Source: a virus | Reading direction: 5' to 3' (one strand) | DNA: 34,921 nt | Virus record (IMG/VR): IMGVR_UViG_3300025759_000308 | Location: 1 to 34,921 of that record | Shown here: one piece after another, positions 8,320 through 33,606 of the stretch | Position numbering within the stretch: position 1 is the first letter of the stretch | How the letters are laid out: each line of letters opens with the position of its first letter | The notes under the pieces: generated by a model | The model's input: only the letters and a program-made list of their open reading frames with translations | Database searches by the model: none | What the model was told of the DNA's origin: nothing | Made by a program: the position numbers and the translations under genes

Positions 8320-8646
8320 ATGGCTATAAATGCTCATACACCTTTAGGACCATTTGATTACACGTGCAAAGATGATGTAAGCGACCCTACCATTTTTAGG
8401 CTTAAGGGGCTTGATAGTGAAGCGTACAGTGACGTTCTTTTTGATTTGCGCGTGGATTGTGACGACCTTGTTTTTACTCATAACGGCATAGTTAAAACGC
8501 TTAAATATGGTCTTATAGGGTGGAAAAACTTTACGCACCCATTCTTGCGTGAAAATTTTGGCTATATCCCACCTGGTGTCAGGACGGAGCTTGCTTACAA
8601 AATTATAGAGGCCAGCAAGGCGGGAGATGACGTTATAAAAAAGTAG
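8320..8646 (+). CDS. tail assembly chaperone, gpG-like zero-frame product
   Basis: 108 aa (MAINAHTPLGPFDYTCKDDVSDPTIFRLKGL...). It lies between tube and tape measure, where nearly all siphoviruses carry a chaperone made in two forms by frameshifting. The short form would coat the tape measure during tube polymerisation and is not part of the virion. The reading frame ends ATA AAA AAG TAG, so the last sense codons form the slippery heptamer A AAA AAG right before the stop, and the -1 frame stays open for a further 107 codons. Confidence 0.75.
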   Translation: MAINAHTPLGPFDYTCKDDVSDPTIFRLKGLDSEAYSDVLFDLRVDCDDLVFTHNGIVKTLKYGLIGWKNFTHPFLRENFGYIPPGVRTELAYKIIEASKAGDDVIKK

Positions 8647-8671
8647 TCGCGGCGCTTGCTGTATATCGGCA
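8637..8671 (+). promoter_or_regulatory. -1 programmed frameshift site of the tail chaperone
   Basis: The heptamer A AAA AAG (8637-8643) is in the correct phase (X XXY YYZ) and the zero-frame stop TAG follows immediately. TGCTG-TATAT-CGGCA (8657-8671) can form a 5-bp hairpin with one G-U pair 13 nt downstream. A AAA AAG is among the most slippery heptamers in E. coli. Confidence 0.75.
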
Positions 8672-8966
8672 CCCAGAGCGTTTTGATTGCGGGGCATGTG
8701 ATTGGGGTAAGCGGTGCAACAGGTTTTCGGACAGTAACGGGCCGGCAGATTTCCCTATGTTCGCATATGAGGCAGGCGGCGTTAAGGTTGAGTCGAACAG
8801 TTGTTTTTTACCTGATATCACTGCGACAGATAGAGGTTTTATTTCGATGTATGGACACTATAAAAACGGCGTACTGTACCGCGGCGGCGGATACAGTAAA
8901 CAACCTAACTTGTATTTAGAAATTATGGGGTTCATAGACCGGTGCCTAAACAAGAATTCCGAATAG
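8643..8966 (+). CDS. tail assembly chaperone, gpT-like extension reached by -1 frameshift
   Basis: This frame has no good start of its own upstream of the heptamer and begins in effect at 8643: VVAALAVYRHPERFDCGACD and onward to FIDRCLNKNSE. Joined to the 108-residue upstream protein it gives a 215-residue fusion, the equivalent of lambda gpG-T, which recruits tube subunits to the tape measure. The extension holds a short cysteine cluster (DCGACDWGKRC) that could bind a metal. An internal ATG at 8757 is probably not used. The tape-measure start lies inside its last 25 nt. Confidence 0.75.
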   Translation, partial: VVAALAVYRHPERFDCGACDWGKRCNRFSDSNGPADFPMFAYEAGGVKVESNSCFLPDITATDRGFISMYGHYKNGVLYRGGGYSKQPNLYLEIMGFIDRCLNKNSE

Positions 8967-10729
8967 CGGCAAAAGATGATACACGGCGTGCTGTAGATTC
9001 AGCTAAGAAAAACTTTTCAGGATTAAATAAATCCATAGGCTCTGCTAAAAAAGGGCTGATAGCGTTTGGCGCGGCTGTAGGCGTTGCTAAAGTATTTGAG
9101 CTAACAAAAGAGACAGCGGCAGCAAAAGATGAACTAGGTAAAATGGCTGGTCAGCTAGGGTTGACTGTTGAGCAGCTGTCGCGGTTTCAGTTTGTGGCGG
9201 AGCGGTCCGGTATAAAGTCTACAGAGTTCAACGCTTCGCTTCAGCGAATGGAGCGCAGGCTGGCAGAAGTCGCGGCAACTGGTAAAGGTGAGGCCGTTGG
9301 CGCGTTAGACGCGCTCGGCGTGTCGATAGATTCGCTTAAAAAATTATCTCCTGATGAGCAGTTTTTAAAGCTTTCTGATGCTATGGATGGCGTAGAAAAT
9401 CCATCCGAAAAAGTCAGGATTGCGTTCAAATTGTTTGATTCTGGCGGCGTCAAAATGATTAGAGCGATGGAAGGCGGTAGCGAAGCTATAAGAGGCTTAA
9501 TGCGCGAATCCGACCGGCTCGGCGGCACGCTTAGCACTCAAGCCGCAACAGATTTTGCCAGCTTTAATGACTCTTTAACAAATTTAGATACTGCTTTTGA
9601 TGGCTTGAAAATAAAGATATCATCTGTTGTGGCTAAGCCGTTAACAAAGTTTTTCAATTTTCTAGCGTTTGCTATCCCTGATGCTGCTGGAACTTCTGTA
9701 AAATCGCTTGAAGAGCTTGATTCAAAAATATCTGATTTAGATTCAAGAATAGCAGGCGGAGAAAAGTCTAGAGGGCAGCGTTTGAGGAGGAACCTTTCAA
9801 GCCTGAAAAGCGAACGGGAAGAGATAGTAAAAAATCAAAACGAGATAAAAAGGCAGACAGAATTTAGGCGTGCAGCCTCGGCGGAACAGTTAAGGATTCA
9901 TCAGCTCAATCTGGCCAAGGCAGCAGATGAGCGCGAGCTGGAGCGCGAGAAAACGACAGCGGATAGTGCAAGGTTAAACATGGTCCGAAAATACCAGGAC
10001 TCAATAGTAACCTTATCGGAGGATATACAGGCGGTTACAGATTTGAGTCTTCCCGCGCTAATTGAAGAGCGTGCGATAGATGACTTAACCGGCAAGTACG
10101 CAGCTATTCAGGATGCCACTATTGAGCATCAAATGATTCTTGATGGTGTTCACGCTGAGCATATACAAAAAAGAAATGAGTACGAGAAAGCAACATCGGC
10201 TCAAAAAACCGCGTTTGTAGTAAAAGATTTAAGCACAATAACTGGCGCTTTCGCTGGTCAATCTAAAAAAATGTTTGAAATAACCAAGGGTTTATCGATA
10301 GCAGAAACTTTGATAAATACTTACAACTCAGCAACCTCAGCATATAAAGCTATGGTTGGTATACCGTTTGTTGGGCCTAAGTTGGCGGTAGTTGCGGCAG
10401 CGGCAGCAATAGCGGCGGGTAAGGCCAATGTGGATCAGATACGCGCTCAAAAATTCCAAGGTCAGGCTCATGACGGCCTTGACTTTGTTCCAAGGACGGG
10501 TACTTTTCTTCTTGAGCGTGGGGAGCGTGTTGTTAAAAAAGAAGATAATAAAAAGTTATCGCAAGCCATTGATAATGGCCTTGGCAGCGGTGAGCTTACT
10601 GTAAATTTTAATATCAGCGCTTTAGATTCGAGATCAGCTACAGATTACATAGTTGATAATCAGAATATTATCATTTCCATAATACAAAACGCCTACACTG
10701 ATCGTGGCCGAGCGGGGCCGCTGGGGTAA
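8942..10729 (+). CDS. tail tape measure protein
   Basis: 595 aa, GTG start overlapping the chaperone extension. N-terminal helices (KDDTRRAVDSAKKNFSGLNK) are followed by a conserved tape-measure segment (GQLGLTVEQLSRFQFVAERSGI, RMERRLAEVAATGKGEAVGAL, ..DSGGVKMIRAMEGG). A charged coiled coil spans about residues 255-350. A hydrophobic alanine/glycine-rich stretch (YKAMVGIPFVGPKLAVVAAAAAIAAGKANVDQIR, ~475-505) is typical of the segment that may insert in the host membrane. At roughly 1.5 A per residue the tail would be about 90 nm long. C-terminal RERGERVVKKE-type sequence (LLERGERVVKKEDNKKL) is common in the family. Confidence 0.88.
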   Translation: MPKQEFRIAAKDDTRRAVDSAKKNFSGLNKSIGSAKKGLIAFGAAVGVAKVFELTKETAAAKDELGKMAGQLGLTVEQLSRFQFVAERSGIKSTEFNASLQRMERRLAEVAATGKGEAVGALDALGVSIDSLKKLSPDEQFLKLSDAMDGVENPSEKVRIAFKLFDSGGVKMIRAMEGGSEAIRGLMRESDRLGGTLSTQAATDFASFNDSLTNLDTAFDGLKIKISSVVAKPLTKFFNFLAFAIPDAAGTSVKSLEELDSKISDLDSRIAGGEKSRGQRLRRNLSSLKSEREEIVKNQNEIKRQTEFRRAASAEQLRIHQLNLAKAADERELEREKTTADSARLNMVRKYQDSIVTLSEDIQAVTDLSLPALIEERAIDDLTGKYAAIQDATIEHQMILDGVHAEHIQKRNEYEKATSAQKTAFVVKDLSTITGAFAGQSKKMFEITKGLSIAETLINTYNSATSAYKAMVGIPFVGPKLAVVAAAAAIAAGKANVDQIRAQKFQGQAHDGLDFVPRTGTFLLERGERVVKKEDNKKLSQAIDNGLGSGELTVNFNISALDSRSATDYIVDNQNIIISIIQNAYTDRGRAGPLG

Positions 10730-16152: not shown

Positions 16153-16425
16153 ATGCTAGAAACTGAATTAAGTAATCTAATAGCATGTATCGAAGATATA
16201 AAAGAAAAGCTGGAAAACATTCCAAGCCTACCTAGCAACACCGAGGCAGAAGTAGAGCTAACCTCCATGGCCGTTAGAGACATAGCGATAAAATTAGTTC
16301 ATTCAGACGTTAATAATTCATCAAAAATCACTGACATACTATCAAACTACAATGTTGACAGATTTGAACTGCTCGATAAAAAGCACCTCAAGTCAGTTGA
16401 ATCAAAGCTAAGGGCCTTACAGTGA
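16153..16425 (+). CDS. hypothetical protein, 90 aa
   Basis: First gene of the replication block. The ATG at 16153 is chosen over a TTG at 16108 because AAAAGG precedes it by about 10 nt. The sequence is mostly helical and charged (MLETELSNLIACIEDIKEKLENIP..., SVESKLRALQ), suggesting a small coiled-coil protein. Its stop overlaps the next start by 4 nt (GTGA). No family is recognised; a role with the adjacent Cas4-like protein is only a guess from coupling. Confidence 0.6.
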   Translation: MLETELSNLIACIEDIKEKLENIPSLPSNTEAEVELTSMAVRDIAIKLVHSDVNNSSKITDILSNYNVDRFELLDKKHLKSVESKLRALQ

Positions 16426-17555
16426 CAGCGCACGCGAGATTATCAGCGAGCAGCGCGCACAGATGGGCGCGGTGCCCCTACTCTATCACAGCCGAAAAAG
16501 ACATTCCTAACACCTCAAGCGCAGCATCAATAGAAGGCACTTGCGCTCACGAACTAGCGGAAATATGCCTACCTGAGAAGCTGGACCCACGCGATTACAT
16601 AGGTACAGAGGTCGCCAATCACGTAGTAGATAGCGACATGGCGGACCACATTCAAGGCTACATAGACTATATATACAGTCATGGAGTTGGGAGTTCTGCG
16701 CGCTTTTATGAGTTGCGCGTATGCTACGCTCACGTAGTCCCCGACGGGTTCGGAACGTGTGACTGCGTAGTTATATCTGGCGACACGCTACACATTATAG
16801 ACTTAAAGTACGGCATAGGTGAGCACGTAGAAGCGAGAGAGAACTACCAGCTTTTACTTTACGCTATAGGTGCTATGCAGTATTTTTCCTGGATAAACTT
16901 TAGCTATATAAAGATGCATATATATCAGCCAAGGAAAAACAACGTCGACTCGTGGACACAAGCGGCTAGTGATTTTGTTTTGTGGCGAGAGTTTTTCTCA
17001 ACGAGAGCTATGGAGACATACAGCGATGACGCACCCGCCCTGCCCTCTCCTAAAGGGTGTCACTGGTGCAGAGCACGCGGTGAATGCGTAGAGCTGGCTA
17101 AATACGTAGAGCAGCGCGTAAAATTCAAGGACGCTATAGAAAAAGACAGAAAGACAGACTTAGAATATAGTGAGGCGGTTTTTAAGGACAAAAAGGTTAT
17201 CGAGTCTTTTTTGAAAGCGAACGAAGAGCGCCTAAAAAACGCGCTTGAGATGGGCATCAAGTTTGAAGACGTAAAGCTGGTTAAGCGTAGAGCGGTTAGA
17301 CGTTTTGAGGATGACGACTTATTAAAAGAGGCTTTAGAAAACCAGATAGGCGACAAAGCATATAAAAAGGAATTAATAAGCGTAAGCAAGGCGGAAAAAA
17401 TCATAGGTAAAAACAGGTTTAAAGAACTGGGCTTTTCTTCTTTTGTTGTTTATCCGGATATAGGAACAGCCGTGGCTCTATCAAACGACAAAAGGAAAGA
17501 GGTTAAAATTAATATTATTAACGGAAGTTTTGAGGAGATAAAACAGAATGTCTAA
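16422..17555 (+). CDS. DUF2800 protein, Cas4/RecB-like PD-(D/E)XK nuclease
   Basis: 377 aa. The N-terminus HARLSASSAHRWARCPYSI is the DUF2800 signature. Nuclease residues are visible: His43 (CAHELAE), Asp114 (GFGTCD), Asp127 and Lys129 (IIDLKYG), and Gln143/Tyr147 (QLLLYA). Cys18 plus the three cysteines of CHWCRARGEC (near residue 217) are placed like the iron-sulfur cluster ligands of Cas4 and AddB. It probably trims DNA ends in replication or recombination. It lies directly upstream of the SSB-like DUF2815 gene, the usual partner in many phages. GTG start, 4-nt overlap with the gene before. Confidence 0.9.
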   Translation: MTAHARLSASSAHRWARCPYSITAEKDIPNTSSAASIEGTCAHELAEICLPEKLDPRDYIGTEVANHVVDSDMADHIQGYIDYIYSHGVGSSARFYELRVCYAHVVPDGFGTCDCVVISGDTLHIIDLKYGIGEHVEARENYQLLLYAIGAMQYFSWINFSYIKMHIYQPRKNNVDSWTQAASDFVLWREFFSTRAMETYSDDAPALPSPKGCHWCRARGECVELAKYVEQRVKFKDAIEKDRKTDLEYSEAVFKDKKVIESFLKANEERLKNALEMGIKFEDVKLVKRRAVRRFEDDDLLKEALENQIGDKAYKKELISVSKAEKIIGKNRFKELGFSSFVVYPDIGTAVALSNDKRKEVKINIINGSFEEIKQNV

Positions 17556-18105
17556 AAAAGAAGGTACCGCACGTTTCCAGATAAAAAAGGTTAGGTTGTC
17601 TTACCCATCATTATTTAAAAAAGCGAAATTTGAGGGGGTAGAAACAAAATACGAAGCAACATTTTTAATACCGAAAACGGACCATCAGCTAAAAGAGATT
17701 AGAAGGATTTTGGGCGACGCAGCAAGCGCATATTTTGGAGACCCACTACCCGCTAAGCTTAAATGGTGTATACAAGACGGAGACGCAGAAGACAGGGACG
17801 GTTACGAGGGATGCTACAGTCTTAAAGCGGCCAATCCAGACCGACCAAACATTGTCGGCGCAAGGCGCGAGCAGCTATGTGAAGATGATAACGTAATATA
17901 TGCAGGATGCTACGTTAACGCTATTATTCAGCCGTGGATACAAGATAATAAATGGGGTAAAAGAGTTAACTGCAACCTGTATGGCGTCCAATTTCACTCA
18001 GACGGTGAGCCATTCAGCAATATTCCTGATGTATCAGACGAGTTTGATGACATCGGAGACCCCGCAGGGAAAACGTCGGGCGACCTTGACGACATTCCTT
18101 TTTAA
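17548..18105 (+). CDS. DUF2815 protein, probable single-stranded DNA-binding protein
   Basis: 185 aa. ARFQIKKVRLSYPSLFKKAKFEG...KYEATFLIPKTD and the FGDPLPAKLKWCIQDGD, GCYSLKAANPDRPNIV, YAGCYVNAIIQPW segments are typical of DUF2815, an OB-fold-type ssDNA-binding family found with DUF2800. The last ~30 residues are acidic and end SGDLDDIPF. This is the same C-terminal tip (DDIPF) that bacterial SSB uses to recruit repair and replication proteins such as RecO, RecQ, PriA and the Pol III chi subunit. GAGGAG precedes the ATG by 10 nt, and the gene overlaps the nuclease gene by 8 nt. Confidence 0.88.
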   Translation: MSKKEGTARFQIKKVRLSYPSLFKKAKFEGVETKYEATFLIPKTDHQLKEIRRILGDAASAYFGDPLPAKLKWCIQDGDAEDRDGYEGCYSLKAANPDRPNIVGARREQLCEDDNVIYAGCYVNAIIQPWIQDNKWGKRVNCNLYGVQFHSDGEPFSNIPDVSDEFDDIGDPAGKTSGDLDDIPF

Positions 18106-18390
18106 ATGCGCGAGTCAATAATAGAGGGCAAGGTCTCAGCGTATGCTAAAAAACTCGGATGGTTAACTTTTAAGTTTTCCAGCCCGAGTTTTAGGGGCGT
18201 GCCGGATCGAATTTTCTTAAAAATGGGGGCTGTTATTTTTATAGAGTTTAAAGCAACAGGTAAGCGGCCTTCAGCCCTGCAAGCTCGAATAATAGGGATG
18301 ATACGTCGAGCCGGGTTTGCCGTTTACGTCGTTGATAATATTGAAGAAGGCGAAGAGGTTTTTAATTTTTACAATATGAAAGATTATTAA
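18106..18390 (+). CDS. VRR-NUC domain nuclease
   Basis: 94 aa, a stand-alone VRR-NUC (PD-(D/E)XK) fold. The motifs are Glu7 (SIIEGKVSAYAKKLGW), RGVPDR (Asp near 34), IFIEFKATGKRPS (Glu and Lys near 46-48) and Q-A-R-I-I-G in the following helix. Family members act on branched or flapped DNA, probably resolving replication intermediates. The ATG directly follows the DUF2815 stop, and the SNF2-like helicase follows 6 nt downstream, an association seen in many phages. Confidence 0.92.
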   Translation: MRESIIEGKVSAYAKKLGWLTFKFSSPSFRGVPDRIFLKMGAVIFIEFKATGKRPSALQARIIGMIRRAGFAVYVVDNIEEGEEVFNFYNMKDY

Positions 18391-18396
18391 GCCCCT

Positions 18397-19761
18397 ATGC
18401 TATCAAGAGCCAACCTTCACGACTACCAAGTACAGAGCTACAGACGGATTATAGAAACTGAAAAAATAGCTCTATGGTTAGACATGGGGCTAGGGAAAAC
18501 AGTAACAACTTTGACAGCGTGCGCCGATTTGCTTGCTATAGGAGACATAAAGCGCGTCTTGATAATCGCCCCCCTACGTGTTGCTAACACTGTATGGCAC
18601 AAAGAAATAGAAAATTGGGAGCAATTAAAGCATCTAACATACTCAATAGCGACCGGCCAAAAAGCAAAAAGAGTGAGGGCGCTATCTAAAAAATCAGACA
18701 TAACGATAGTTAATAAAGAATGCGTGGAGTGGCTTGTTGACACACACAAGAAAGACTGGCCATATGATATGGTTGTTATCGATGAATCCAGCTGTTTTAA
18801 ATCACATCAAGCAAAACGCTTTAAGGCGCTAAAACGCGCATCCAAATACATCCGAAGAATGATACAGTTAACCGGCACGCCTGCGCCTCAATCGCTAGCT
18901 GACGTTTGGTCACAAATTTATCTGCTAGACGGCGGTTCAAGGCTGGGACACAATATAACAGCATTTAGAGCTAGATATATGCAGCCTGATTTTAACGGCT
19001 ACGGCTACAATATGCTACCAGGATCAAGTCAAGCGATATATGACGCTATTGAAGACATAGCCATAACGATGACAGCAAAAGATTACCTTGATCTACAGCA
19101 ACTAGTTGTCTACACTATCAGCGTACCCGTGAGCATATCATCAATGCTGCACTACACGACGCTGGAGAAAGAGTTTTTTTTGGAGTTAAACAGCGGAGAT
19201 ATAACAGCAGTTAATGCGGGAGTGCTCGCGGGTAAATTGCTGCAACTATGCAACGGTGCATGCTATATAGATGAGAGTAACGGCTCTTACAGTGTCGTTC
19301 ACGACGCTAAAATTGACGCCCTAAAAGAGATTGTGTCAGATAACAGCGGCGAGAACATACTGGTTGCATACAACTTTAAGAGCGACAAAGAGAGGCTCAC
19401 CGAAGCTTTTCCAAACGCTGTCGTGATGGATAAGAACGGCGAGTGCGTGGATAGTTGGAATAGAGGAGAAATAAAAATGCTACTGGCCCACCCTGCTAGC
19501 GCGGGACACGGGTTAAATCTTCAGTTCGGCGGGAGTATGATTGTCTGGTTTGGCCTTAACTGGTCGCTTGAGTTATACCAGCAGTTCAACACGCGAGTAT
19601 ACCGTCAGGGACAAAAAAACACGGTAAGGATTGTACACCTCGTTGCAACGTGCGAACGGAACGGTAAAAAGATTGAACTTATAGATGAGCGGGTCCTGCG
19701 CGCTTTAAACAGTAAATCCGAAAATCAAAACGAATTAATCGAGGCTCTAAAGTGCGACTAG
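18397..19761 (+). CDS. SNF2-family DNA helicase/translocase
   Basis: 454 aa. Motif I is DMGLGKT (29-35), motif Ia is LIIAPLRVANTVW, motif II is VVIDESSCFKS, and motif III is QLTGTPAPQSLADVWSQIYLLD. Motif V is ASAGHGLNLQFG and motif VI is QQFNTRVYRQGQKNTVRIVHLVA. These make a complete two-lobe SF2/Snf2 ATPase without accessory domains. It probably remodels forks or strips proteins together with the VRR-NUC nuclease next door. The ribosome site is poor, so translation may be coupled to the gene upstream. Confidence 0.93.
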   Translation: MLSRANLHDYQVQSYRRIIETEKIALWLDMGLGKTVTTLTACADLLAIGDIKRVLIIAPLRVANTVWHKEIENWEQLKHLTYSIATGQKAKRVRALSKKSDITIVNKECVEWLVDTHKKDWPYDMVVIDESSCFKSHQAKRFKALKRASKYIRRMIQLTGTPAPQSLADVWSQIYLLDGGSRLGHNITAFRARYMQPDFNGYGYNMLPGSSQAIYDAIEDIAITMTAKDYLDLQQLVVYTISVPVSISSMLHYTTLEKEFFLELNSGDITAVNAGVLAGKLLQLCNGACYIDESNGSYSVVHDAKIDALKEIVSDNSGENILVAYNFKSDKERLTEAFPNAVVMDKNGECVDSWNRGEIKMLLAHPASAGHGLNLQFGGSMIVWFGLNWSLELYQQFNTRVYRQGQKNTVRIVHLVATCERNGKKIELIDERVLRALNSKSENQNELIEALKCD

Positions 19762-20015
19762 AATACAAAAGACCACGAACAATAAAAGTACCTAAGCGTA
19801 CAGCCGATGGAAAGCATGTAACGCCGGTTGGAGTAATAAGCGGCAGCACTCAGGATTTTTTAGATATAGTGTCAATGATGCCATGCGTTTACGCCGACAT
19901 TAAACAGTTAAAACTGGATGCTAAAAAGGTGCATTCAGAGATTGAATTAAATGGACTCAAGATAAATTCAGATAACGTACACAAATGTTTTGAGAGCCTA
20001 AAAGAATCGCGCTAG
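19752..20015 (+). CDS. hypothetical protein, 87 aa
   Basis: GTG start overlapping the helicase by 10 nt, with GAGG about 8 nt upstream. The N-terminus is basic (RLEYKRPRTIKVPKRTADGK); the remainder is probably helical (DFLDIVSMMPCVYADIKQLKLDAKKVHSEI). No family is recognised. It is the last gene of the coupled replication block. Confidence 0.6.
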   Translation: MRLEYKRPRTIKVPKRTADGKHVTPVGVISGSTQDFLDIVSMMPCVYADIKQLKLDAKKVHSEIELNGLKINSDNVHKCFESLKESR

Positions 20016-20078: not shown

Positions 20079-20783
20079 ATGTCAACAGATACATATAATA
20101 GCACACACACAAACACAGTGTCATCACCTACCGGTTTTATGAGAGCTTACGTATTTTTAGCAACAATCCTTGCTGCTGGGGTCTCTTTTTGGTTTGCGTA
20201 CACTTTCGGCAAAGCTATGTCTGACACTTACGCTATAGCTATAGCGTTAGCTACAATATGTCTAACGTTGATTTATTCAAGATGGCTATCCCCTTCTGCC
20301 CTTAATTTATGTAAGAGCATTGCAACCTACGGACTAATATTTTTTACAATTTTGACCGGCCTAGGCTATTACGCTATGACAGCGCAGGAGAAAAAACACC
20401 CAGCACTAGCTGAAGCACGGCTCGCGATTGTTGACGCACAAGCTTACAGAGCAAAAACGTATATAAAAGATGATTTTTTTATGTCCAACAATCAAATGGG
20501 AAACTCTGCTATGCAGAGCGAAAGGATCAGTGACGCTACAAAAGACGTAGCTATAGCTAGACTACACTACCAAAACTTGATAGCGAAACTGGGCGAGTAC
20601 GAAGTTGGCCCTTTCGCTATCCTCGGCTGGCTCGCTGCTCTAAATATTTTCAACGCTGAAACCTGGGGGCTGATAATCGGCACCCTTTTAGCCGTGGTTC
20701 TGTGCTGTAATGAATTGTGTATGGGGGCCCTTTTCACGGGTAGGCTTGACCTAAACGGCAATGTAGTAAATTTGGGAAAGTAA
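20079..20783 (+). CDS. multi-pass membrane protein, zero-frame product of a frameshift gene
   Basis: 234 aa. Hydrophobic segments lie near residues 23-43, 50-67, 80-100, 178-192 (weaker) and 195-217. A soluble, mostly helical loop spans ~101-176 (EKKHPALAEARLAIVDAQAYRAK...DATKDVAIARLHYQNLIAKLGEY). GGAGAG is 8 nt before the ATG. The gene ends TTG GGA AAG TAA, so its last sense codons form the heptamer G GGA AAG, and a -1 slip continues into a 167-residue DNA-binding extension. No family is recognised. The short form would be a membrane protein ending in a brief tail (LNGNVVNLGK). It could serve as a membrane anchor partner of the long form. Confidence 0.8.
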   Translation: MSTDTYNSTHTNTVSSPTGFMRAYVFLATILAAGVSFWFAYTFGKAMSDTYAIAIALATICLTLIYSRWLSPSALNLCKSIATYGLIFFTILTGLGYYAMTAQEKKHPALAEARLAIVDAQAYRAKTYIKDDFFMSNNQMGNSAMQSERISDATKDVAIARLHYQNLIAKLGEYEVGPFAILGWLAALNIFNAETWGLIIGTLLAVVLCCNELCMGALFTGRLDLNGNVVNLGK

Positions 20784-20839
20784 GACGCGCTACAGCATAC
20801 ACTACAAGCGCCGACAGTGTCGGCGCTACTGATAGCGCG
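20774..20839 (+). promoter_or_regulatory. -1 programmed frameshift cassette (GGGAAAG plus RNA structure)
   Basis: The heptamer G GGA AAG (20774-20780) is in the correct phase and the zero-frame stop TAA follows at once. It is the heptamer used by lambda G-T. After a 5-nt spacer, CGCGCTA (20786-20792) pairs with TAGCGCG (20833-20839). That stem encloses a second perfect hairpin, AGCGCCGAC-AGT-GTCGGCGCT (20807-20827). Slippery site, stop, 5-nt spacer and G+C-rich structure together are the classic arrangement for stimulated -1 frameshifting. Confidence 0.85.
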
Positions 20840-21283
20840 AACGCTACAGATTCACTACTATTTGGCGCAAATAGTAGTGAATCTGTAGCTGATGTAGTAG
20901 AAGAGGAGCCTGTAGTAGAGGAGCCTGTAGCTGATGTAGCAGAGGAGCCTGTAGCAGAGGAGCCTGTAGCTGATGTAGCAGAGGAGCCTGTAGCAGAGGA
21001 GCCTGTAGCAGAGGAGCCTGTATCAACGCGTAGAACAAAACGTGTAGCTAAACGCAAAACAGGAGCTGAACGCGACAAGTGCGCGCTTGTACGGCACGCT
21101 ATTTTAGCGCACGAGATAAACGGTGATCGATGGAGCTATAAAAAGTTGTCAGATACATTTTCGGTCAGCGAGTCGACTGTAAGAGACATAATTTTAGATA
21201 TGTCAAAAAACAGCGAGCTTGAGAAAGTAGGCAGAAAATGGGTGATCACTGATGAATGCCGAAAATTAATATTGGAGGACTAA
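20780..21283 (+). CDS. -1 frameshift extension: acidic EEPVA repeat linker plus winged-helix-like DNA-binding domain
   Basis: This frame opens at 20750 and has no ATG, GTG or TTG before the C-terminal domain, yet it codes for an ordered protein. It adds 167 residues, giving a 401-residue fusion with the membrane protein. Extension residues 1-36 are a Ser/Thr/Ala-rich segment. Residues 37-81 are an acidic linker built from VAEEP units. Residues 83-93 are a basic patch (TRRTKRVAKRK). Residues ~97-165 read as a helix-turn-helix with a following wing (RWSYKKLSDTFSVSESTVRD, then KVGRKWVIT). The upstream protein ends just after a membrane helix, so this would place a DNA-binding domain on a long acidic tether at the membrane. 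A sequencing indel could mimic the frame change, but the cassette argues against that. Confidence 0.8.
   Translation, partial: VRRATAYTTSADSVGATDSANATDSLLFGANSSESVADVVEEEPVVEEPVADVAEEPVAEEPVADVAEEPVAEEPVAEEPVSTRRTKRVAKRKTGAERDKCALVRHAILAHEINGDRWSYKKLSDTFSVSESTVRDIILDMSKNSELEKVGRKWVITDECRKLILED
20843..20889 (+). repeat. 22-bp perfect inverted repeat, 3-nt loop
   Basis: Arms 20843-20864 and 20868-20889 are exact reverse complements (left arm begins GCTACAGATTCACTACT), separated by GCG. It lies inside the frameshift extension, codes for ATDSLLFGANSSESVA, and starts 3 nt after the frameshift structure ends. The RNA would form a long rod, possibly an RNase III-type target, a ribosome roadblock or an additional frameshift stimulator. 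Confidence 0.85.
20894..21019 (+). repeat. 15-bp tandem repeats encoding VAEEP units
   Basis: Units of the form GTAGCAGAGGAGCCT recur about seven times, twice interrupted by GTAGCTGAT (VAD). They encode the acidic linker of the frameshift extension. Near-identical copies at the DNA level suggest recent expansion by slippage. Confidence 0.85.
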
Positions 21284-21285
21284 GC

Positions 21286-21447
21286 TTGAAGTTAAGCGCG
21301 ATTCTAGCAGGATGGTTTATGTTAGTTATTTCTTGGCATGCAACAAAATATGGCTATGCTGAGCTAGGTATCGCGCTATACATAAGTATGTGTATATTAA
21401 TGGCGGCAGAAGTTATAGCGCACAAACGAAGGAAATTAAAGGGGTAG
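21286..21447 (+). CDS. small two-helix membrane protein (holin candidate)
   Basis: 53 aa from a TTG start with a near-perfect GGAGG about 8 nt upstream; an ATG at 21256 lacks such a site. It has two hydrophobic segments (LSAILAGWFMLVISWHAT and LGIALYISMCILMAAEVIA) joined by a short polar turn (KYGYAE), and a strongly basic end (HKRRKLKG). This is the outline of class II holins, and the amidase lacks its own export signal. However, it lies in the early region right after the membrane/DNA-binding gene, so it could instead be a partner of that protein. Confidence 0.65.
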   Translation: MKLSAILAGWFMLVISWHATKYGYAELGIALYISMCILMAAEVIAHKRRKLKG

Positions 21448-23087: not shown

Positions 23088-23849
23088 ATGAATATAGAGC
23101 TATCAGAAAACACGATGACAAAGTCTGGGCGCGTGCTTTATCAAGTGCGCGCAGTCAGTGACTTTTGGGGGGTGAGTAAGGGTGCTATGGGCGGCTACGT
23201 GGAAAGCCTGGACTCTCTAAAAAATGGCGCTTGGGTCGATAAAGGCTCAGTAGTTTTTAGGGAGGCGTCGATTCACGACGGAGAAATTCACGGCGGTGAT
23301 ATATACGGCGGTACGATTCACGGCGGCTATATTTACGGAGGTACGATTCGCGGAGGTACGATTCACGACGGCTATATTTACGGCGGCGAGATTACAGGCG
23401 GTACGATTTACGGCGGCAGTATTTACGGAGGTACGATTCACGACGGTTTGATTCACGGCGGCGAGATTAACAACGGAGAAATTCACGGCGGAGTGATTCA
23501 CGGCGGCCATATTCACGGCGGAGTGATTGCAGGCGGCAATATTTACGGCGGCTATATTTACGACGGCTATATTTACGACGGTGATATATACCGAGGAGAA
23601 ATTCACGGCGGCGTGATCGAAACAGAAAATCACATAGGGTTTTCTAACGTCGGATCAAAAAACGCATATCTCTTTGCGTACGTAATTGATAATCAGATAA
23701 CTATATCAAGGGGGTGCTTTCACGGATCGATAGACGAGTTTTACGACAAAGTCGAAAGGGTGCATGGCAGCAATAAGCATGGAGTGCTTTATAAAGCGCT
23801 AAGACCAATCATCGAAATGAAACTTAACGAATTCACAAAAGGAGAGTAA
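23088..23849 (+). CDS. pentapeptide-repeat (IxGGx) beta-helix protein
   Basis: 253 aa. Residues 12-50 (KSGRVLYQVRAVSDFWGVSKGAMGGYVESLDSL) match the N-terminal domain of a widespread phage family that carries a repeat beta-helix. The C-terminal RGCFHGSIDEFYDKVERVHG also fits that family. Between them lie about 24 five-residue units of the form G-x-I-[HY]-G (residues ~62-181), with Ile every fifth residue. This spacing builds a right-handed quadrilateral beta-helix, as in Qnr/MfpA proteins that mimic DNA and bind gyrase. The variable positions are mostly His, Tyr, Asp, Glu and Thr. Its function is unknown; a DNA-mimic or scaffold role is speculation. Confidence 0.8.
   Translation: MNIELSENTMTKSGRVLYQVRAVSDFWGVSKGAMGGYVESLDSLKNGAWVDKGSVVFREASIHDGEIHGGDIYGGTIHGGYIYGGTIRGGTIHDGYIYGGEITGGTIYGGSIYGGTIHDGLIHGGEINNGEIHGGVIHGGHIHGGVIAGGNIYGGYIYDGYIYDGDIYRGEIHGGVIETENHIGFSNVGSKNAYLFAYVIDNQITISRGCFHGSIDEFYDKVERVHGSNKHGVLYKALRPIIEMKLNEFTKGE
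23271..23618 (+). repeat. 15-bp tandem repeat array within the pentapeptide-repeat gene
   Basis: About 24 variants of the unit ATTCACGGCGGCGAG or ATTTACGGCGGTACG, each one pentapeptide. The strong DNA-level similarity suggests growth by slippage or unequal exchange, so copy number may vary between relatives. Confidence 0.85.
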
Positions 23850-24127: not shown

Positions 24128-24328
24128 ATGGGCGAGCATACTATATATGGATATAACGCGGCGCTTAAAGAGGTGTTAAAAATTATAGACAACACAGTAG
24201 CCACTACAGACAGTACAAAAACGGCACTCGACGTGCTCAAGGAGGTAAAAAGCGAAGTGAAGGCGATACGGTACAGGCACGGAGATCAGGACATAGGCGC
24301 AATGGATAAGCGCGGATTATCTAAATGA
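24128..24328 (+). CDS. hypothetical protein, 66 aa
   Basis: GAGGTGA gives a strong ribosome site 5 nt before the ATG, which lies 3 nt after the preceding stop. The sequence is helical and polar (NAALKEVLKIIDNTVATTDS, TALDVLKEVKSEVKAIRYRHGDQ). No family is recognised. It overlaps the lipoprotein gene by ATGA. Confidence 0.6.
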   Translation: MGEHTIYGYNAALKEVLKIIDNTVATTDSTKTALDVLKEVKSEVKAIRYRHGDQDIGAMDKRGLSK

Positions 24329-24567
24329 GAGTAGCCGCAGCGCTTGTACTACCTCTGGCTCTAAGCGCATGCTTAGAGCCTAGGGTGGTAGAAGTGGAGA
24401 AAATAGTAGAGGTTGAAAAAAGGATTGAGGTGGCCTATTTTGTAGATGGAGGCTATACACCGAAACCGAAAGAAATACCGGTACGAGACGCTTACAAAGA
24501 GCTACAACAGAGGATCAGGAAGGCGGAGTCAATGTATGGATGCGAAGAAATGCCGAAGATTTATTAG
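24325..24567 (+). CDS. small lipoprotein (possible outer-membrane spanin subunit)
   Basis: 80 aa with a signal peptide ending in a lipobox: MRVAAALVLPLALSAC, lipidated Cys16. The mature part has a charged stretch (VVEVEKIVEVEKRIEV), a short proline-bearing segment (TPKPKEIP) and a helix. The residue after Cys is Leu, so sorting to the outer membrane is expected. Rz1-type outer spanins are short lipoproteins encoded beside or inside a TM-plus-coiled-coil partner. A TM protein overlaps its 3' end here, but that protein lacks a coiled coil. Spanin is a guess; the lipoprotein nature is clear. Confidence 0.7.
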   Translation: MRVAAALVLPLALSACLEPRVVEVEKIVEVEKRIEVAYFVDGGYTPKPKEIPVRDAYKELQQRIRKAESMYGCEEMPKIY

Positions 24568-25288: not shown

Positions 25289-27661
25289 GTGGAGCAGCAA
25301 AAGGGATTTTTGTTAGAGCACGATGGAACAATAACTATAGCGACAGGAAAAAGAGTAGATTCTAAAACTTGGAAAAATGAAATAATAAAAATATCAGAAC
25401 TATCAAAAAGGCTTTCGCAGCCAGTTTTAACAAATGAGACTTTCACAGAATATAAATCGATGGACAGAGAGAGCCGCGCTACTTGCAAGGATCACGGCGG
25501 CTACGTGGGTGCATCAGTCAAGCACAAAAGTAGAGCGAAGGATAATATACAATCGCGCTGGATAATAACCTTGGATTTAGATCACGTAAAAAAAGAGGAC
25601 AACATATATGAGAAAATCCAAAAACTAGATTTTGCTTACACTGTACATTCCACGCATTCGCACAGCGTAGAAGAGCCTCGGCTAAGGCTTATAGCTTATA
25701 CTGATAGGTGTATGCTGTCTAACGAATATCAAGCAATTGCGCGAGCAATTGCTGGTACAGTGGGCATAGATCATTTTGATGATACGACATATGATATTAA
25801 TAGGCTAATGTTTTGGCCTTCGAAATCGCAAGACGGTGCCTGGTATTATCAGCATGAGGACCAGAAACTTTTACAAGTAGATAAGTTTTTAGATAAATTT
25901 TACGGAGGTGCGGGCGCCTGGAAAGATGTTACTAAGTGGCCAAAGTCGTCGCGGCAGGTAACAAAAATTAGGACGGGGTTAGAAAAAGCTTCGGACCCAA
26001 AAACTAAAAATAACATTGTCGGAGCATTTTGCAGAGCTTATGATATACATTCTGCTATATCTGAGTTTTTACAAGACGTTTACGAGCCGACGCAAAACGG
26101 ACGATACACGTTCCTGGGAGGTAGCAGCGTAAACGGTGCGGTGACATATAACGATACTTTTATGTATTCAAATCACGAGAGCGACCCAGCGAGCCAGCAA
26201 CTATGTAACTCGTTCGACCTTGTTAGACTGCATCTTTTCGGGAGTAAAGACGGGAGCACAACGGCGACGGAGTCTACAAAAAAACCAAGTTTTAGAGCAA
26301 TGGTTGATTTTCTCGACGGTAACGAGTACGTCGCGGGGCAGATGATAACCGTTAAAACCGTTGAATTTAAAGAGCTGGGATTTGATGATAACGAGCCGAT
26401 CGTTGACGAGGATTCAAAAAATTCAAAATGGCAAGCCAGAATACAGCGTAACGAGCTAGGAAAAATCAAGAGCACGCAATTTAACGCAGACATACTTTCA
26501 ACTCACGACCCCGTACTAAAAGGTAGGGCTTTATATAATGAGTTTACATCGCGTGTAGTGAAAAAATGTAGCGATGAGTGGAGCGACTACGACACGACAG
26601 TTTACCAGCATTACCTGGGCGAAAAATACGATGTTGATTTTGGCGTAGATAAAATGGATCGAGCTATCGATTTTGCTGCGAGGAAGAATTCATTTCATCC
26701 AATCAAAGACTTGATTGGGGGTGTGGAATGGGATGGGGTCGAGCGGTTAGATACACTTTTTATAGACTACTGGAAAACTGAAGATAACATTTATTACAGA
26801 GAGATAGCCAAAAATTTTTTAATAGCAGGATGTAGACGCATACAGCGAAAACTTGGATACAAATTTGATTATGCCCCGGTTATCGAGGGGCCGCAAGGGC
26901 TCGGGAAAACCACTTTTATAATAGAGCTTGCTTTCGGCGAGTACTACTCGACGCTCGACAGCATCGAGCCTGCACGAGCTGTGGAGTGTCTAAGCGGATC
27001 GCTGGTGGCTGAAATCAGTGAACTATCAGTTATGAACGCTAGCGATCTGGAAGCGCAAAAGAAGTTTATGTCCGACACGTTTACACGCGTGCGGCTTGCA
27101 TATGATCGTAGGCCTGAGCGCTATTTTAAGCAGTGTGTTTTTGTTGGGACTACTAATAAAAGTGAGTATCTTAAAGATCCGACGGGGAATAGGAGGTGGT
27201 GGCCAGTTATACCAGGGCTAAAAGCTGGGCAGTTCTGGGATTACGAAAAACTGAAATCAGAACGGCTACAAATTTGGGCGGAGGCGTGGAGCAGAGCTGA
27301 GGGCGACGAAGAGACCGAGCTAACATCGGCAGCTAGAGAGATAGCAGTTAGTTTACAAGATGCGGCGCGGGAGTCTGACGACTGGGAAGGGCGCGTTGAG
27401 GCGTGGCTAAGAGAAGAGGCAGCGGTTAGGAGATACGACAGCGCAGAGTTAATACCTTCTCCAAATCTTACAGCCCCGAGAGATAAAGTTTGTTTGGCTG
27501 AGGTCATGGCTGATTGTCTTTTTATAACACGGCCAACAGTCGGTGAAACAAATCGATTAAAACGAGTTATGCGAGTTTTGGAAGACCGGCACTGCTGGAC
27601 TAAAAAATCGATGCGTTTCGGTGTACGTTTCGGGACGCAACGCGGCTGGGTTTTGGCATAG
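25289..27661 (+). CDS. primase-helicase, AEP-like primase fused to VapE/D5-type ATPase
   Basis: 790 aa, GTG start. Residues ~60-200 look like an archaeo-eukaryotic primase core: the Asp96/Asp98 pair (ITLDLDH), HSTHSHS with His123, then PRLRLI, and NRLMFWPS near 171. Residues ~470-690 are a virulence-associated E helicase: Walker A GPQGLGKTT (534-542), acidic motif LVAEISEL, and sensor FVGTTNKSEYLKDPTGNRRWWPV. A C-terminal domain of about 110 residues has a winged-helix-like end (TRPTVGETNRLKRVMRVLEDRHCW). It would melt the origin, unwind DNA and make primers. The candidate origin lies about 100 bp downstream. Confidence 0.9.
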   Translation: MEQQKGFLLEHDGTITIATGKRVDSKTWKNEIIKISELSKRLSQPVLTNETFTEYKSMDRESRATCKDHGGYVGASVKHKSRAKDNIQSRWIITLDLDHVKKEDNIYEKIQKLDFAYTVHSTHSHSVEEPRLRLIAYTDRCMLSNEYQAIARAIAGTVGIDHFDDTTYDINRLMFWPSKSQDGAWYYQHEDQKLLQVDKFLDKFYGGAGAWKDVTKWPKSSRQVTKIRTGLEKASDPKTKNNIVGAFCRAYDIHSAISEFLQDVYEPTQNGRYTFLGGSSVNGAVTYNDTFMYSNHESDPASQQLCNSFDLVRLHLFGSKDGSTTATESTKKPSFRAMVDFLDGNEYVAGQMITVKTVEFKELGFDDNEPIVDEDSKNSKWQARIQRNELGKIKSTQFNADILSTHDPVLKGRALYNEFTSRVVKKCSDEWSDYDTTVYQHYLGEKYDVDFGVDKMDRAIDFAARKNSFHPIKDLIGGVEWDGVERLDTLFIDYWKTEDNIYYREIAKNFLIAGCRRIQRKLGYKFDYAPVIEGPQGLGKTTFIIELAFGEYYSTLDSIEPARAVECLSGSLVAEISELSVMNASDLEAQKKFMSDTFTRVRLAYDRRPERYFKQCVFVGTTNKSEYLKDPTGNRRWWPVIPGLKAGQFWDYEKLKSERLQIWAEAWSRAEGDEETELTSAAREIAVSLQDAARESDDWEGRVEAWLREEAAVRRYDSAELIPSPNLTAPRDKVCLAEVMADCLFITRPTVGETNRLKRVMRVLEDRHCWTKKSMRFGVRFGTQRGWVLA

Positions 27662-27762: not shown

Positions 27763-28035
27763 GGCGTTACAAAAATGTTACGGGTGTTACAAAAGTTCAA
27801 TAAGTGTACAAAAAGGGGGTGTTTTTGGTATGTTTATTGAGCAAATGGCGTTACAAAAATGTTACAGAAATTAATTCTGTAACACCAGGCCACTATATTG
27901 ATATCGCATGGTTACTTTTTAGGCGTTAACAAAACTGAAAAGTGTAACACTTTTGTGACACTTTTGTAACGCCGTAAGCCATTGATATACATGGGAAAAT
28001 CAAAGAAGTGTTAACAGAATTACAAAAGTTACAAC
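27763..28035. other. candidate replication origin with GTTACAAAA iterons
   Basis: GGCGTTACAAAAATGTTAC occurs twice exactly (27763-27781 and 27847-27865). Further TGTTACAAAAG-type copies lie at 27785-27795, and degenerate ones at 27804-27815, 27922-27934 and 28019-28035. Inverted copies spaced 11 bp lie in 27941-27973 (ending CTTTTGTAACGCC). A 10-bp inverted repeat (arm TGTTACAGAA) spans 27860-27884. No gene is present. Repeated sites beside an initiator-type gene and next to an AT-rich tract are the usual build of an iteron origin. Confidence 0.65.
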
Positions 28036-28150
28036 AAAAAAACTATTTAAAAAAGTTATTTTTTTATTTTAAAATATAGCTGTTTTGTATATATAATATA
28101 CAAAATATTGGTTTTGCATAATAAAAAAAAAATAAAAAAAACTTTTTTTG
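28036..28150. other. AT-rich tract, probable duplex-unwinding element
   Basis: About 115 bp almost devoid of G and C, with long A and T runs and a 10-bp inverted repeat TTTTGTATAT-ATA-ATATACAAAA (28083-28105). It directly adjoins the iteron cluster, where strand opening would be expected. The remaining part of the 650-bp gap (28151-28314) holds the promoter listed next and no gene. Confidence 0.6.
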
Positions 28151-30179: not shown

Positions 30180-31238
30180 ATGATTTTGAAATCTGGATCT
30201 ACTGATGTATCTTGCGTGATACGTATTATAGACTCTACTGACGGTACGCCAGAAACTGGAGTTGAGCACAATAGTACTGGGATCGATTTGTGGTATCGGC
30301 GTGACGTTGACCCAGGTAGCACACCTCTTGCTAAAGTTCCAATCACGGAAGCGGCTTTAGCATCGCTTACTACAGCGCATGCGGATGGTGGTATAGAGCA
30401 TATTGGTGATGGTTATTACCGTTTAGATTTGGAGGATGCAGCTGTTGCGGCAGGTGCGGTGGGCGTTATGATAGGCGGTACTGTAACCGGCATGATTGTA
30501 ATTGGAACTTATATTGGGTTAGTCGATTATGATCCACAAGACTCTGTTAGGTTGGGGATTACAGCTTTACCTAACGCGGCAGCGGACGCAGCAGGTGGGC
30601 TACCAATTTCTGACGCTGGCGGCTTAGATTTAGATTCGAGGCTGGATGCTGATATATCAAGTAGATTAGCTCCTACAGTTGCGTCAAGAACGCTGGATGT
30701 AACAGCAACGGGCGCGGCGGGGATAGACTGGGGTAATATCGAAAATAAGGCAACAGCTAATGATTTGAGCGCTACTGATATTCAGCTATGCGATTTAGTA
30801 ACAGCTAATACTGATATGCGTGGCACAGATAGTGCTGCGTTAGCGTCAAATTGGACAGCAACTAGAGCAGGATATGTGGATAATCTTAACGGGCATACTG
30901 CACAAACAGGAGATTCTTTTACCCGCATCGGCGCTGCAGGAGCGGGGCTAACAGATATGGGCGGTATGAGTTCGGCGATGAAAGCAGAGGTTAATTCCGA
31001 AGTGCTTGATGTTATTAATGCAGACACTTTCGCGGAACCTGGCCAAGGCGCACCAGGTGCAACCGTTTCTTTAGCAGCGAAAATTGGATATCTCTATAAA
31101 GCTTGGCGTAATAAATCCACTATGACCAGCACTACTTATTCACTTTTTGCTGATGATGCGTCTACAGTGGATCAAAAGGCAACGGTAAGCGACGACGGGA
31201 CGACGGCTACAATTAACGAAAAAGCAAGTGGTCCATAA
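30180..31238 (+). CDS. probable tail/fibre structural protein, 352 aa
   Basis: The N-terminal ~120 residues form a beta domain (TDVSCVIRIIDSTDGTPETG, ...IEHIGDGYYRLDLEDAAVAAGAVGVMI) resembling the anchoring domains of BppU-like or neck-type proteins. The middle has the LPISDAGGLDLDSRLDADIS..RLAPTVASRTLDVTATGAAGIDW pattern that recurs in marine phage structural genes. The C-terminus (AAKIGYLYKAWRNKSTMTSTTYSLFADDAST) is also characteristic. It likely forms a trimeric fibre shaft. No receptor-binding end is evident. Confidence 0.6.
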   Translation: MILKSGSTDVSCVIRIIDSTDGTPETGVEHNSTGIDLWYRRDVDPGSTPLAKVPITEAALASLTTAHADGGIEHIGDGYYRLDLEDAAVAAGAVGVMIGGTVTGMIVIGTYIGLVDYDPQDSVRLGITALPNAAADAAGGLPISDAGGLDLDSRLDADISSRLAPTVASRTLDVTATGAAGIDWGNIENKATANDLSATDIQLCDLVTANTDMRGTDSAALASNWTATRAGYVDNLNGHTAQTGDSFTRIGAAGAGLTDMGGMSSAMKAEVNSEVLDVINADTFAEPGQGAPGATVSLAAKIGYLYKAWRNKSTMTSTTYSLFADDASTVDQKATVSDDGTTATINEKASGP

Positions 31239-31240
31239 AA

Positions 31241-31444
31241 ATGGCTATAGATACGAGAGCAAAACGTTTTTCTATGCTGAACTTTTCGTGGGTGCCTTCG
31301 GTCGTGCTTTTTGAAGCTGATTCTACAGTAGATGCGGATGATAAGTCTCACATGTTGAATTTATATTCTGGTATTTCTCTCGATAATCCTGCGGCGGCAG
31401 TGGGGCAGAGATCGAGGTTACTTTTATTGGGGGTAGGTCAGTAA
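31241..31444 (+). CDS. small structural-module protein, 67 aa
   Basis: MAIDTRAKRFSMLNFSWVPS...EADSTVDADDKSHMLNLYSGI. Short proteins opening MAIDTR-x-KR-x-S and holding a D-x-x-H-M/L-L-x-L-Y-x-G-I segment recur in tail-fibre modules of unrelated phages. Their role is unknown. The start is 2 nt after the preceding stop, and the stop overlaps the next ATG (TAATG). Confidence 0.65.
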   Translation: MAIDTRAKRFSMLNFSWVPSVVLFEADSTVDADDKSHMLNLYSGISLDNPAAAVGQRSRLLLLGVGQ

Positions 31445-33606
31445 TGGTTGATAATGTGGAGCTTTCAAGCGGCAGCGGTGGCGCGACTGTAAAGACGGAC
31501 GACGACGGCACGGCGCATTGGCAATATGTTAAAATCGCGTATGGTGCAGACAATACACAAACGCGAGTAACGACAGCGGCTCCTCTTCCGGTAGATCTCA
31601 GGACCGATAATTTAGCCGGTAATCTCGATGTTAATATTGCGGCGCAAACGTCTGACATAACAATTGCAGACGGCGGTAATACTATAACAGTAGATGGCAC
31701 GGTAACTGCTAATCTTAGCGCTACAGATAATTCTGTATTGGATCAAATAGAGGCTAATACAAGTTACGGAGATAATACAGGCGGTGGCGCTGAGGCTGGA
31801 TGTTTGCGTGTCACTCTTGCTAATGATTCAACCGGAGTTGTTAGTATTGATGATAATAATGGCTCGATTACTGTAGATAGCGCTGATTTAGTAACGCTTG
31901 CGGGTGCTGTTAGTGGCTCAGAAATGCAGGTTGATATAGTCAGCGCGCTACCAGCCGGTGCAAATGCGATAGGTAAGTTGTCTTCAAACTCTGGAGTAGA
32001 TATTGGTGATGTAGACGTTACATCCGTTATTCCTGGCACCACTTCTGCAAGCCTAGGCAAAGCGATAGATAGCGTTGTCGGCGCTACCGATACAGGTATC
32101 TTACTACTCGGCAAGCATCAGGAGGACCAGGTTCATTTGTCCACCTCGGATGGTGATTACGACGCTTTGACCATCGATTCGTTGGGCTCTTTGCACGTTA
32201 ACGCTGAGGCTCACCATATTTTTGATGAGCTCGGCGCCACTACGGGCTGGTCCGCTTTAAGTAATGATACATTAAATCTGGCGACCACGACAAAACACGT
32301 GATGGGTATTCTCGCGCTTACATTTGATAAAGTCAATGGAGCCGCAAATACCGCGCTAGCGGGTATACAAAAAACACTAACGTCTACGGATTTAGGGGAT
32401 GTTTCGCCGCATGATATTTTGCAGAGCTCTTTTTATATACCCGATTTAACAGATGTTAGTTATGTATTTTTGAGGCTTGGCACCGACTCGTCTAATTATA
32501 ATGAGTGGAGGCTAGATGCGTCTACATTGACAGCTGGAGTTTTCGAGACTGGTGCGCTAACGATCGGCGACGCTGATTACAACGGGATAACAGGCAACGG
32601 AATGAACTCCTCTGCTGTCTCATACATAGCGCTCGGCGTTGCGTTTAATGCTGAGACAGACACGCTAGCAGGCATTGTATTTGATCAAGTCAGCTATCAT
32701 ACAAACCAGCATACATCAACCTCCATAAATTCAGAGGTCTCCTCTTCTGTATCGTCTGCTAATGTAAATATTAATAAAATAGGTAATAAAGTTGTAAACA
32801 CGGAGGCGGGGAATGTCGCTACTGGTACGCAGCGTATCACTATTGCGACTGATGACGCTAATTTGTCAGCTATTAAAACAGCTGCTGAACTCGTTGACGA
32901 TTGCGTTTATGTAGATGATGCGGATTGGGTAGCGGCCAGTTCTAAACATGCTTTGATTGGCGGCGTATATTCTTCATCGCCCAGAGCTGTTACGGATGGA
33001 GACACGGCGCCGCTTGCTATTGATGTTAACGGACACGCGATAACTAGCGCACATGCCGCATCTGTTGTGCTGTCTGATAATGTTTCTAATACTGCAAATT
33101 TAATGGTTGATGAAGCGGACGCTTTTATGGGCTCGGCCACATTCGGCTATATGTTTGATGGTTCAGCGTGGGATCGTTTGCGCGGCGACGCAGTTAATGG
33201 TTTAACTGTAAACCTTGGTAGTAATAATGATGTAATTTTGGGTGTGAGTGCTTCTGGTGGTGCCGCGTCTTATCGTAATTTAGATGTAGATGAAACAGAG
33301 GACGAGGTAAAAGGCACAGCGGGACAAATTTATTGGTTGCATGCCATGAACGCGACAGCTGCACCTTTATACCTTAAAATTTATGATGCAACAGCGGCAA
33401 GTGTTGTTGTTGGTACGACTGCGCCGAAGCATACCTTTATGATACCTACGGCTGGTGATACTAATGGGGCTGGGTTTAATTTATCAGTACCGAACGGTAT
33501 AGAGTTCGGCACAGCAATAACGGTTGCATGTACAACGGCGCTAGCTGATGCTGATACAGGTGCGCCTGGTGCTAATGCATTAGTATTAAATATGGGGTAT
33601 GCGTGA
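31444..33606 (+). CDS. large tail fibre / structural protein, 720 aa
   Basis: Asp/Ala/Thr/Val-rich beta protein with short strand repeats (e.g. DVNIAAQTSDITIADGGNTI). The segment VDDADWVAASSKHALIGGVYSSSPRAVTDGDTAPLAIDVNGH (~485-527) is a motif widely found in marine phage fibre proteins. The last ~110 residues (GTAGQIYWLHAMNATAAPLYLKIYD...TFMIPTAGDTNGAGFNLSVPNGIEFGTAITVACTT) form a separate beta-sandwich domain, also widespread, probably exposed on the virion. A concanavalin-like region may lie at 255-430 (LATTTKHVMGILALTFDKVNG, VFLRLGTDSSNYNEWRLDAS). Confidence 0.65.
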   Translation: MVDNVELSSGSGGATVKTDDDGTAHWQYVKIAYGADNTQTRVTTAAPLPVDLRTDNLAGNLDVNIAAQTSDITIADGGNTITVDGTVTANLSATDNSVLDQIEANTSYGDNTGGGAEAGCLRVTLANDSTGVVSIDDNNGSITVDSADLVTLAGAVSGSEMQVDIVSALPAGANAIGKLSSNSGVDIGDVDVTSVIPGTTSASLGKAIDSVVGATDTGILLLGKHQEDQVHLSTSDGDYDALTIDSLGSLHVNAEAHHIFDELGATTGWSALSNDTLNLATTTKHVMGILALTFDKVNGAANTALAGIQKTLTSTDLGDVSPHDILQSSFYIPDLTDVSYVFLRLGTDSSNYNEWRLDASTLTAGVFETGALTIGDADYNGITGNGMNSSAVSYIALGVAFNAETDTLAGIVFDQVSYHTNQHTSTSINSEVSSSVSSANVNINKIGNKVVNTEAGNVATGTQRITIATDDANLSAIKTAAELVDDCVYVDDADWVAASSKHALIGGVYSSSPRAVTDGDTAPLAIDVNGHAITSAHAASVVLSDNVSNTANLMVDEADAFMGSATFGYMFDGSAWDRLRGDAVNGLTVNLGSNNDVILGVSASGGAASYRNLDVDETEDEVKGTAGQIYWLHAMNATAAPLYLKIYDATAASVVVGTTAPKHTFMIPTAGDTNGAGFNLSVPNGIEFGTAITVACTTALADADTGAPGANALVLNMGYA

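Follow-up and report, generated by a model that had tools for sequence, protein, structure and literature searches.

A conserved cassette in a tailed phage in which a -1 frameshift very probably joins a membrane protein to a winged-helix head

A cassette at positions 20079-21283 of a 34921-base virus record (the window, i.e. the whole stretch of DNA that was analysed) very probably employs a programmed -1 frameshift to join a membrane protein to a winged-helix head. The window carries tailed phage genes for terminase, portal, head, tape measure and fibre proteins. The same arrangement was found in a divergent relative, contig IMGVR_UViG_2806310817_000002, and these two are the only members of the cassette family that were found.

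Organization of the cassette

The cassette and its flanking genes comprise the following features.

16422-20015, + strand: conserved block 5' of the cassette (DUF2800/PDDEXK exonuclease, Gp2.5-like ssDNA-binding/annealing protein, VRR-NUC-type nuclease, SNF2 helicase, small protein)
20079-20783, + strand: 0-frame ORF for a membrane protein of 234 residues, by hydropathy, with a 65% identical homologue in the relative
20774-20780, + strand: slippery heptamer G GGA AAG, in phase, with the TAA stop (20781-20783) directly after it; kept in the relative
20780-21283, + strand: -1 extension of 167 codons, in a frame that is open from 20750 and lacks start codons 5' of the winged helix
20786-20839, + strand: proposed stimulatory stem, with a 10-bp outer stem (20786-20795/20829-20839, one bulge) that encloses a 9-bp hairpin (20807-20815/20819-20827)
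20843-20864/20868-20889, + strand: perfect 22-bp hairpin with a 3-nt loop
20882-21029, + strand: acidic tether of VAEEP-type repeats, replaced by EP/KP repeats in the relative
21030-21283, + strand: basic patch TRRTKRVAKRK and winged helix (21059-21280, 74 residues)
21256-21447, + strand: next gene, for a small hydrophobic protein, which begins before the extension has ended; a homologue also lies 3' of the relative's cassette

Slippery heptamer and downstream structure

The 0-frame ORF ends with the codons TTG GGA AAG TAA, in which GGGAAAG has the X XXY YYZ phase, and this heptamer occurs only once on the + strand of the window. In both phages, an in-phase GGGAAAG has a chance of about 0.013 when synonymous codons are reshuffled. 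The 0 and -1 frames overlap over only some 30 nt, in both phages, and the shift must therefore fall within this interval. A further in-phase sequence, AAATTTG at 20768, was set aside as it is not conserved in the relative. The G_GGA_AAG sequence has been reported to be highly shift-prone in E. coli, where it forms an efficient site (PMC5009743).

The spacer between the heptamer and the proposed stem measures 5 nt in the window and 6 nt in the relative, which places the structure of both phages within the distance of about 5-9 nt that was used to define a shift cassette. The predicted MFE fold includes the pairing of 20786-20792 with 20833-20839 together with the 9-bp hairpin, with a z-score of -5.1 for a 60-nt piece. 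This is the G+C stem that a preliminary description, made from the letters of the sequence, had placed 5 nt past the heptamer; its other readings at this site, namely a 234-residue ORF at 20079-20783 with the terminal codons given above and a lambda-type heptamer in phase just before the stop, equally match the sequence. The 22-bp hairpin had escaped that description, and is possibly a second stimulator or a pause element. A 131-nt piece that takes in this hairpin folds with a z-score of -9.1, and in folding energy the 120 nt past the heptamer rank lowest of 1161 tiled 120-nt windows of this phage. An imperfect 24-nt inverted repeat at 24343-24394, near the start of ORF 24325-24567, is another of the window's most stable folds.

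Conservation in a divergent relative

The contig of the relative is 23.8 kb long and probably a fragment. Its membrane protein ends CTG GGA AAG CGG TAG, with GGGAAAG (3699-3705) on homologous codons and in the same phase as in the window, while the residues shared by the two membrane proteins keep the same codon in 65 of 151 cases, i.e. in less than half. The relative's stem has 12 bp and encloses further hairpins (z-score -6.6); this fold is strong, albeit not exceptional for its contig, as 27 of 791 windows have a lower energy. The -1 extension of the relative consists of EP/KP repeats as tether, followed by a winged helix that is homologous to that of the window (38% identity; tblastn E-value 2.7e-15). 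The two sequences thus share the anatomy of the cassette: heptamer, phase, spacer and stem are conserved, and both halves are homologous. The preliminary description had asked whether homologues of the two halves adjoin in -1 phase with a slippery heptamer, which is the case in the one relative found. Its central proposal, a membrane protein that receives a DNA-binding head by frameshifting, is strongly supported by this comparison; the five membrane helices that were part of it are probably wrong.

The membrane protein

On a transmembrane (TM) scoring scale that is approximate, hydropathy identifies good TM segments at residues of about 23-41, 50-68, 80-98 and 195-213, and four such segments are found in both phages. 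The segment that would make a fifth helix, 175-193, has a weak score of 2.39 and no counterpart among the candidates in the relative. The membrane half is therefore best read as having four TM helices, in agreement with a structure model of low confidence (pLDDT 56). Given the poor quality of this model, the topology rests on hydropathy and charge. The four segments and a positive-inside count suggest an N-in/C-in topology with both ends in the cytoplasm and with residues 99-194 as a helical loop that is predicted to be non-cytoplasmic. A DNA-binding head would thereby be placed in the cytoplasm, where it would have to sit. No relatives of the membrane half are known in Pfam, PHROGs or PDB, and the copy of the relative gives weak matches to NEMP and EcsB that are below cut-off.

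The -1 extension

After the heptamer, the extension encodes a lead rich in Ser, Ala and Asp, the VAEEP repeats, the basic patch and the winged helix. The tether, basic patch and winged-helix-like domain named in the preliminary description are all present, the last of these now backed by a structure model and a GntR match. The domain model has a mean pLDDT of 92, and its secondary structure (helices 2-21, 27-34 and 38-50; strands 54-57 and 60-63) corresponds to a helix-turn-helix with a two-stranded wing. A profile of the two winged-helix sequences matches GntR-family regulators in PDB (E-value 5.6e-5), Foldseek returned many winged-helix regulators, none of them below 1e-3, and Pfam HTH models matched below cut-off only. 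These data support a GntR-like domain, a classification of the predicted fold that applies at the domain level. The tether is likely a spacer, to judge from its length and from a sequence that appears free to change; its replacement between the two phages, with the winged helix kept, is as expected of a spacer and a functional head.

In each of the three parts tested, codon usage fits the -1 frame better than either of the other two sense frames. As described earlier, these 167 residues lack a usual start, since no ATG, GTG or TTG occurs before 21146. Near-cognate starts (ATT, ATC, ATA, CTG) are likewise absent from the -1 frame between 20750 and 21101, a position that already falls inside the winged-helix domain. 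The sequence evidence thus indicates that the tether with an intact head can be reached only from the frame of the membrane protein.

Genomic context and distribution

Both phages have in common the DUF2800 exonuclease, the ssDNA-binding/annealing protein, the VRR-type nuclease, the SNF2 helicase, the small protein, the cassette and the small hydrophobic protein (37% over 35 residues between the two phages, E-value 5e-6). Outside this block only a weak tape-measure match was found (23% identity), and the structural genes are not common to the two. The cassette therefore goes with the recombination/replication block. The closest annotated helicases are those of Pseudoalteromonas and Vibrio phages, no more than a hint at a marine gammaproteobacterium as host.

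The tape-measure gene of the window (8942-10729) does not adjoin the cassette. It is preceded by a -1 shift site of the tail-chaperone type (8320-8966), in which an ORF at 8320-8646 contains A AAA AAG (8637) and is extended in the -1 frame to 8966. The corresponding sites 5' of the tape measure differ between the two phages, with AAAAAAG at 8637 in the window and GGGAAAC at 8493 in the relative. Since each phage has a site of this type, both plausibly use the ribosomes of their hosts for -1 shifting.

Further members of the family were sought in several ways. Neither tblastn of the membrane half against phage and plasmid records, nor that of the relative's extension against phages, gave a match. 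In scans of viral contigs with either half or with the neighbouring helicase, and in scans of genome contigs, the relative alone was found to carry the cassette; such pattern-based searches of collections miss divergent relatives. A profile search that included helicase relatives and annotated Pseudoalteromonas, Vibrio and Marinobacter phages yielded no further member. Other phages with related helicases are without the cassette, which is thus not a general need of replication. Phage Persinger, which ranked first among viral structure matches to the winged helix, was rejected as a member, as its annotation has no visible membrane gene joined by a frame break. The match is probably its 366-bp gene at 18281-18646, judging from the size of 121 residues; the Persinger terminase was also among the matches.

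Several other regions of the window may be mentioned. ORF 23088-23849 encodes a repeat protein with about 17 tandem 15-nt units (23225-23641), and two large ORFs at 30180-33606 (352 and 720 residues) are without a PHROG match. Sites resembling TGTTACAAAA, with one mismatch allowed, occur 16 times in the window against 4.5 expected. Seven of these, on both strands, cluster within about 207 bp (27765-27971), 3' of a VapE-type helicase gene (25289-27661), and adjoin a very A/T-rich region with long imperfect inverted repeats (28049-28149). The cluster is a plausible candidate for an origin or operator.

Proposed mechanism and alternatives

We propose that most ribosomes stop at 20781 and produce the four-helix inner-membrane protein. 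A minority, held by the stem that begins 5 nt past the heptamer, would slip by -1 on G GGA AAG and would read on through the repeat tether, the basic patch and the winged helix to give subunits of about 401 residues. These long subunits would mix with plain ones in anchors that are probably oligomeric, and the shift ratio would set the number of anchors equipped with a DNA-binding head on the cytoplasmic side. Phage DNA is the most likely target of this head, perhaps in an origin-like region, and binding would keep the genome at the membrane during replication or recombination.

That this mechanism applies as a whole, with two products and a shift-set share of membrane anchors whose heads hold phage DNA at the membrane, is on balance favoured; shifting and its rate, topology, DNA binding, mixing of oligomers and a role in replication are what we infer within it. 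One observation, the sharing of the cassette with the recombination/replication block, suggests that phage DNA or the replisome would be attached to the membrane. More tentatively, translation itself may fix the attachment points of the genome on the inner membrane, through a ratio of plain to DNA-binding subunits that is set by the frameshift.

Our second choice after DNA attachment is that the same frameshift produces a membrane-tethered transcription regulator. Its membrane part would sense the envelope (in late infection, superinfection or lysis timing) and its head would act on a phage promoter. The sequence of the winged helix, which is closest to GntR regulators, the large loop 99-194, which could sense something, and the existence of membrane-bound winged-helix regulators of the ToxR/CadC type agree with this. 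We nevertheless consider it rather unlikely, as the domain order and the four TM helices are unlike those of ToxR/CadC and the neighbourhood is one of recombination and replication, not a regulatory region.

Less probable still, the long form would be a minor by-product of a structured shift site that serves mainly to adjust the membrane protein or to link translation to the next gene, with only a small role for the head. Regulatory use of shift signals is known (PMC5009743), and in the window the next gene starts within the extension; in the relative, however, it begins only past the stop of the extension, and the winged helix has been kept across the two phages despite the changed tether.

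Two separate genes, with an unusual start or re-initiation for the winged-helix gene, are very improbable. A GTG at 3939 of the relative would give nearly the whole winged helix without the tether. The preliminary description had raised, as a counter-explanation, homologues whose second half has a start of its own. In the window, the first candidate starts lie inside the winged helix, and the tether and basic patch would stay unexpressed although their codons fit the -1 frame. The retention of frame break and heptamer in the relative makes two ordinary genes unlikely as well. By the same token, a plain fused gene that was split by an error of sequencing or assembly, conceivable for a virus contig and likewise considered beforehand, is largely refuted, as a second phage that differs by about a third in protein breaks frame at the homologous heptamer.

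Comparison with known systems and significance

The proposed shift cassette resembles that of the lambda-type tail chaperone gpG/gpGT in the kind of signal (G GGA AAG), in a shift just before the 0-frame stop, and in a minor product that is lengthened by a further domain; the proteins are different, and the present cassette does not adjoin the tape-measure gene. ToxR and CadC have an N-terminal winged helix and a single TM helix. They share with the present protein a winged helix on an inner-membrane protein, which here is C-terminal, accompanied by four TM segments and very probably made by frameshift.

Known cases of -1 shifts in phages include tail chaperones and capsid extensions (PMC5009743), and in the papers searched tail assembly and capsid extension are their main uses. 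In T7/T3 gene 10 and similar capsid extensions a -1 shift likewise gives a fraction of the product an extra C-terminal part (PMC5009743), but these are structural capsid proteins without a membrane part or DNA-binding head. The closest functional comparison is p16.7 of phi29, an integral membrane protein for which a role in bringing the phage's DNA to the membrane has been proposed (PMC4974454). The present protein differs in its four helices, long tether and GntR-like winged helix; its membrane part has no sequence match in PDB, and p16.7 is not among the winged-helix matches listed; by these comparisons p16.7 is no relative. To our knowledge, p16.7 involves no frameshift. In line with the earlier statement that no such phage gene was known to its author, no membrane protein with a frameshifted DNA-binding head was found in the open-access literature, to which the search was confined.

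If true, this would be a new use of frameshifting, a conserved -1 shift by which a membrane protein acquires a DNA-binding head. Whether and how tailed phages hold replicating DNA at the membrane is an old question, mostly open outside phi29, and a single heptamer would then offer a simple, mutable handle on this process.
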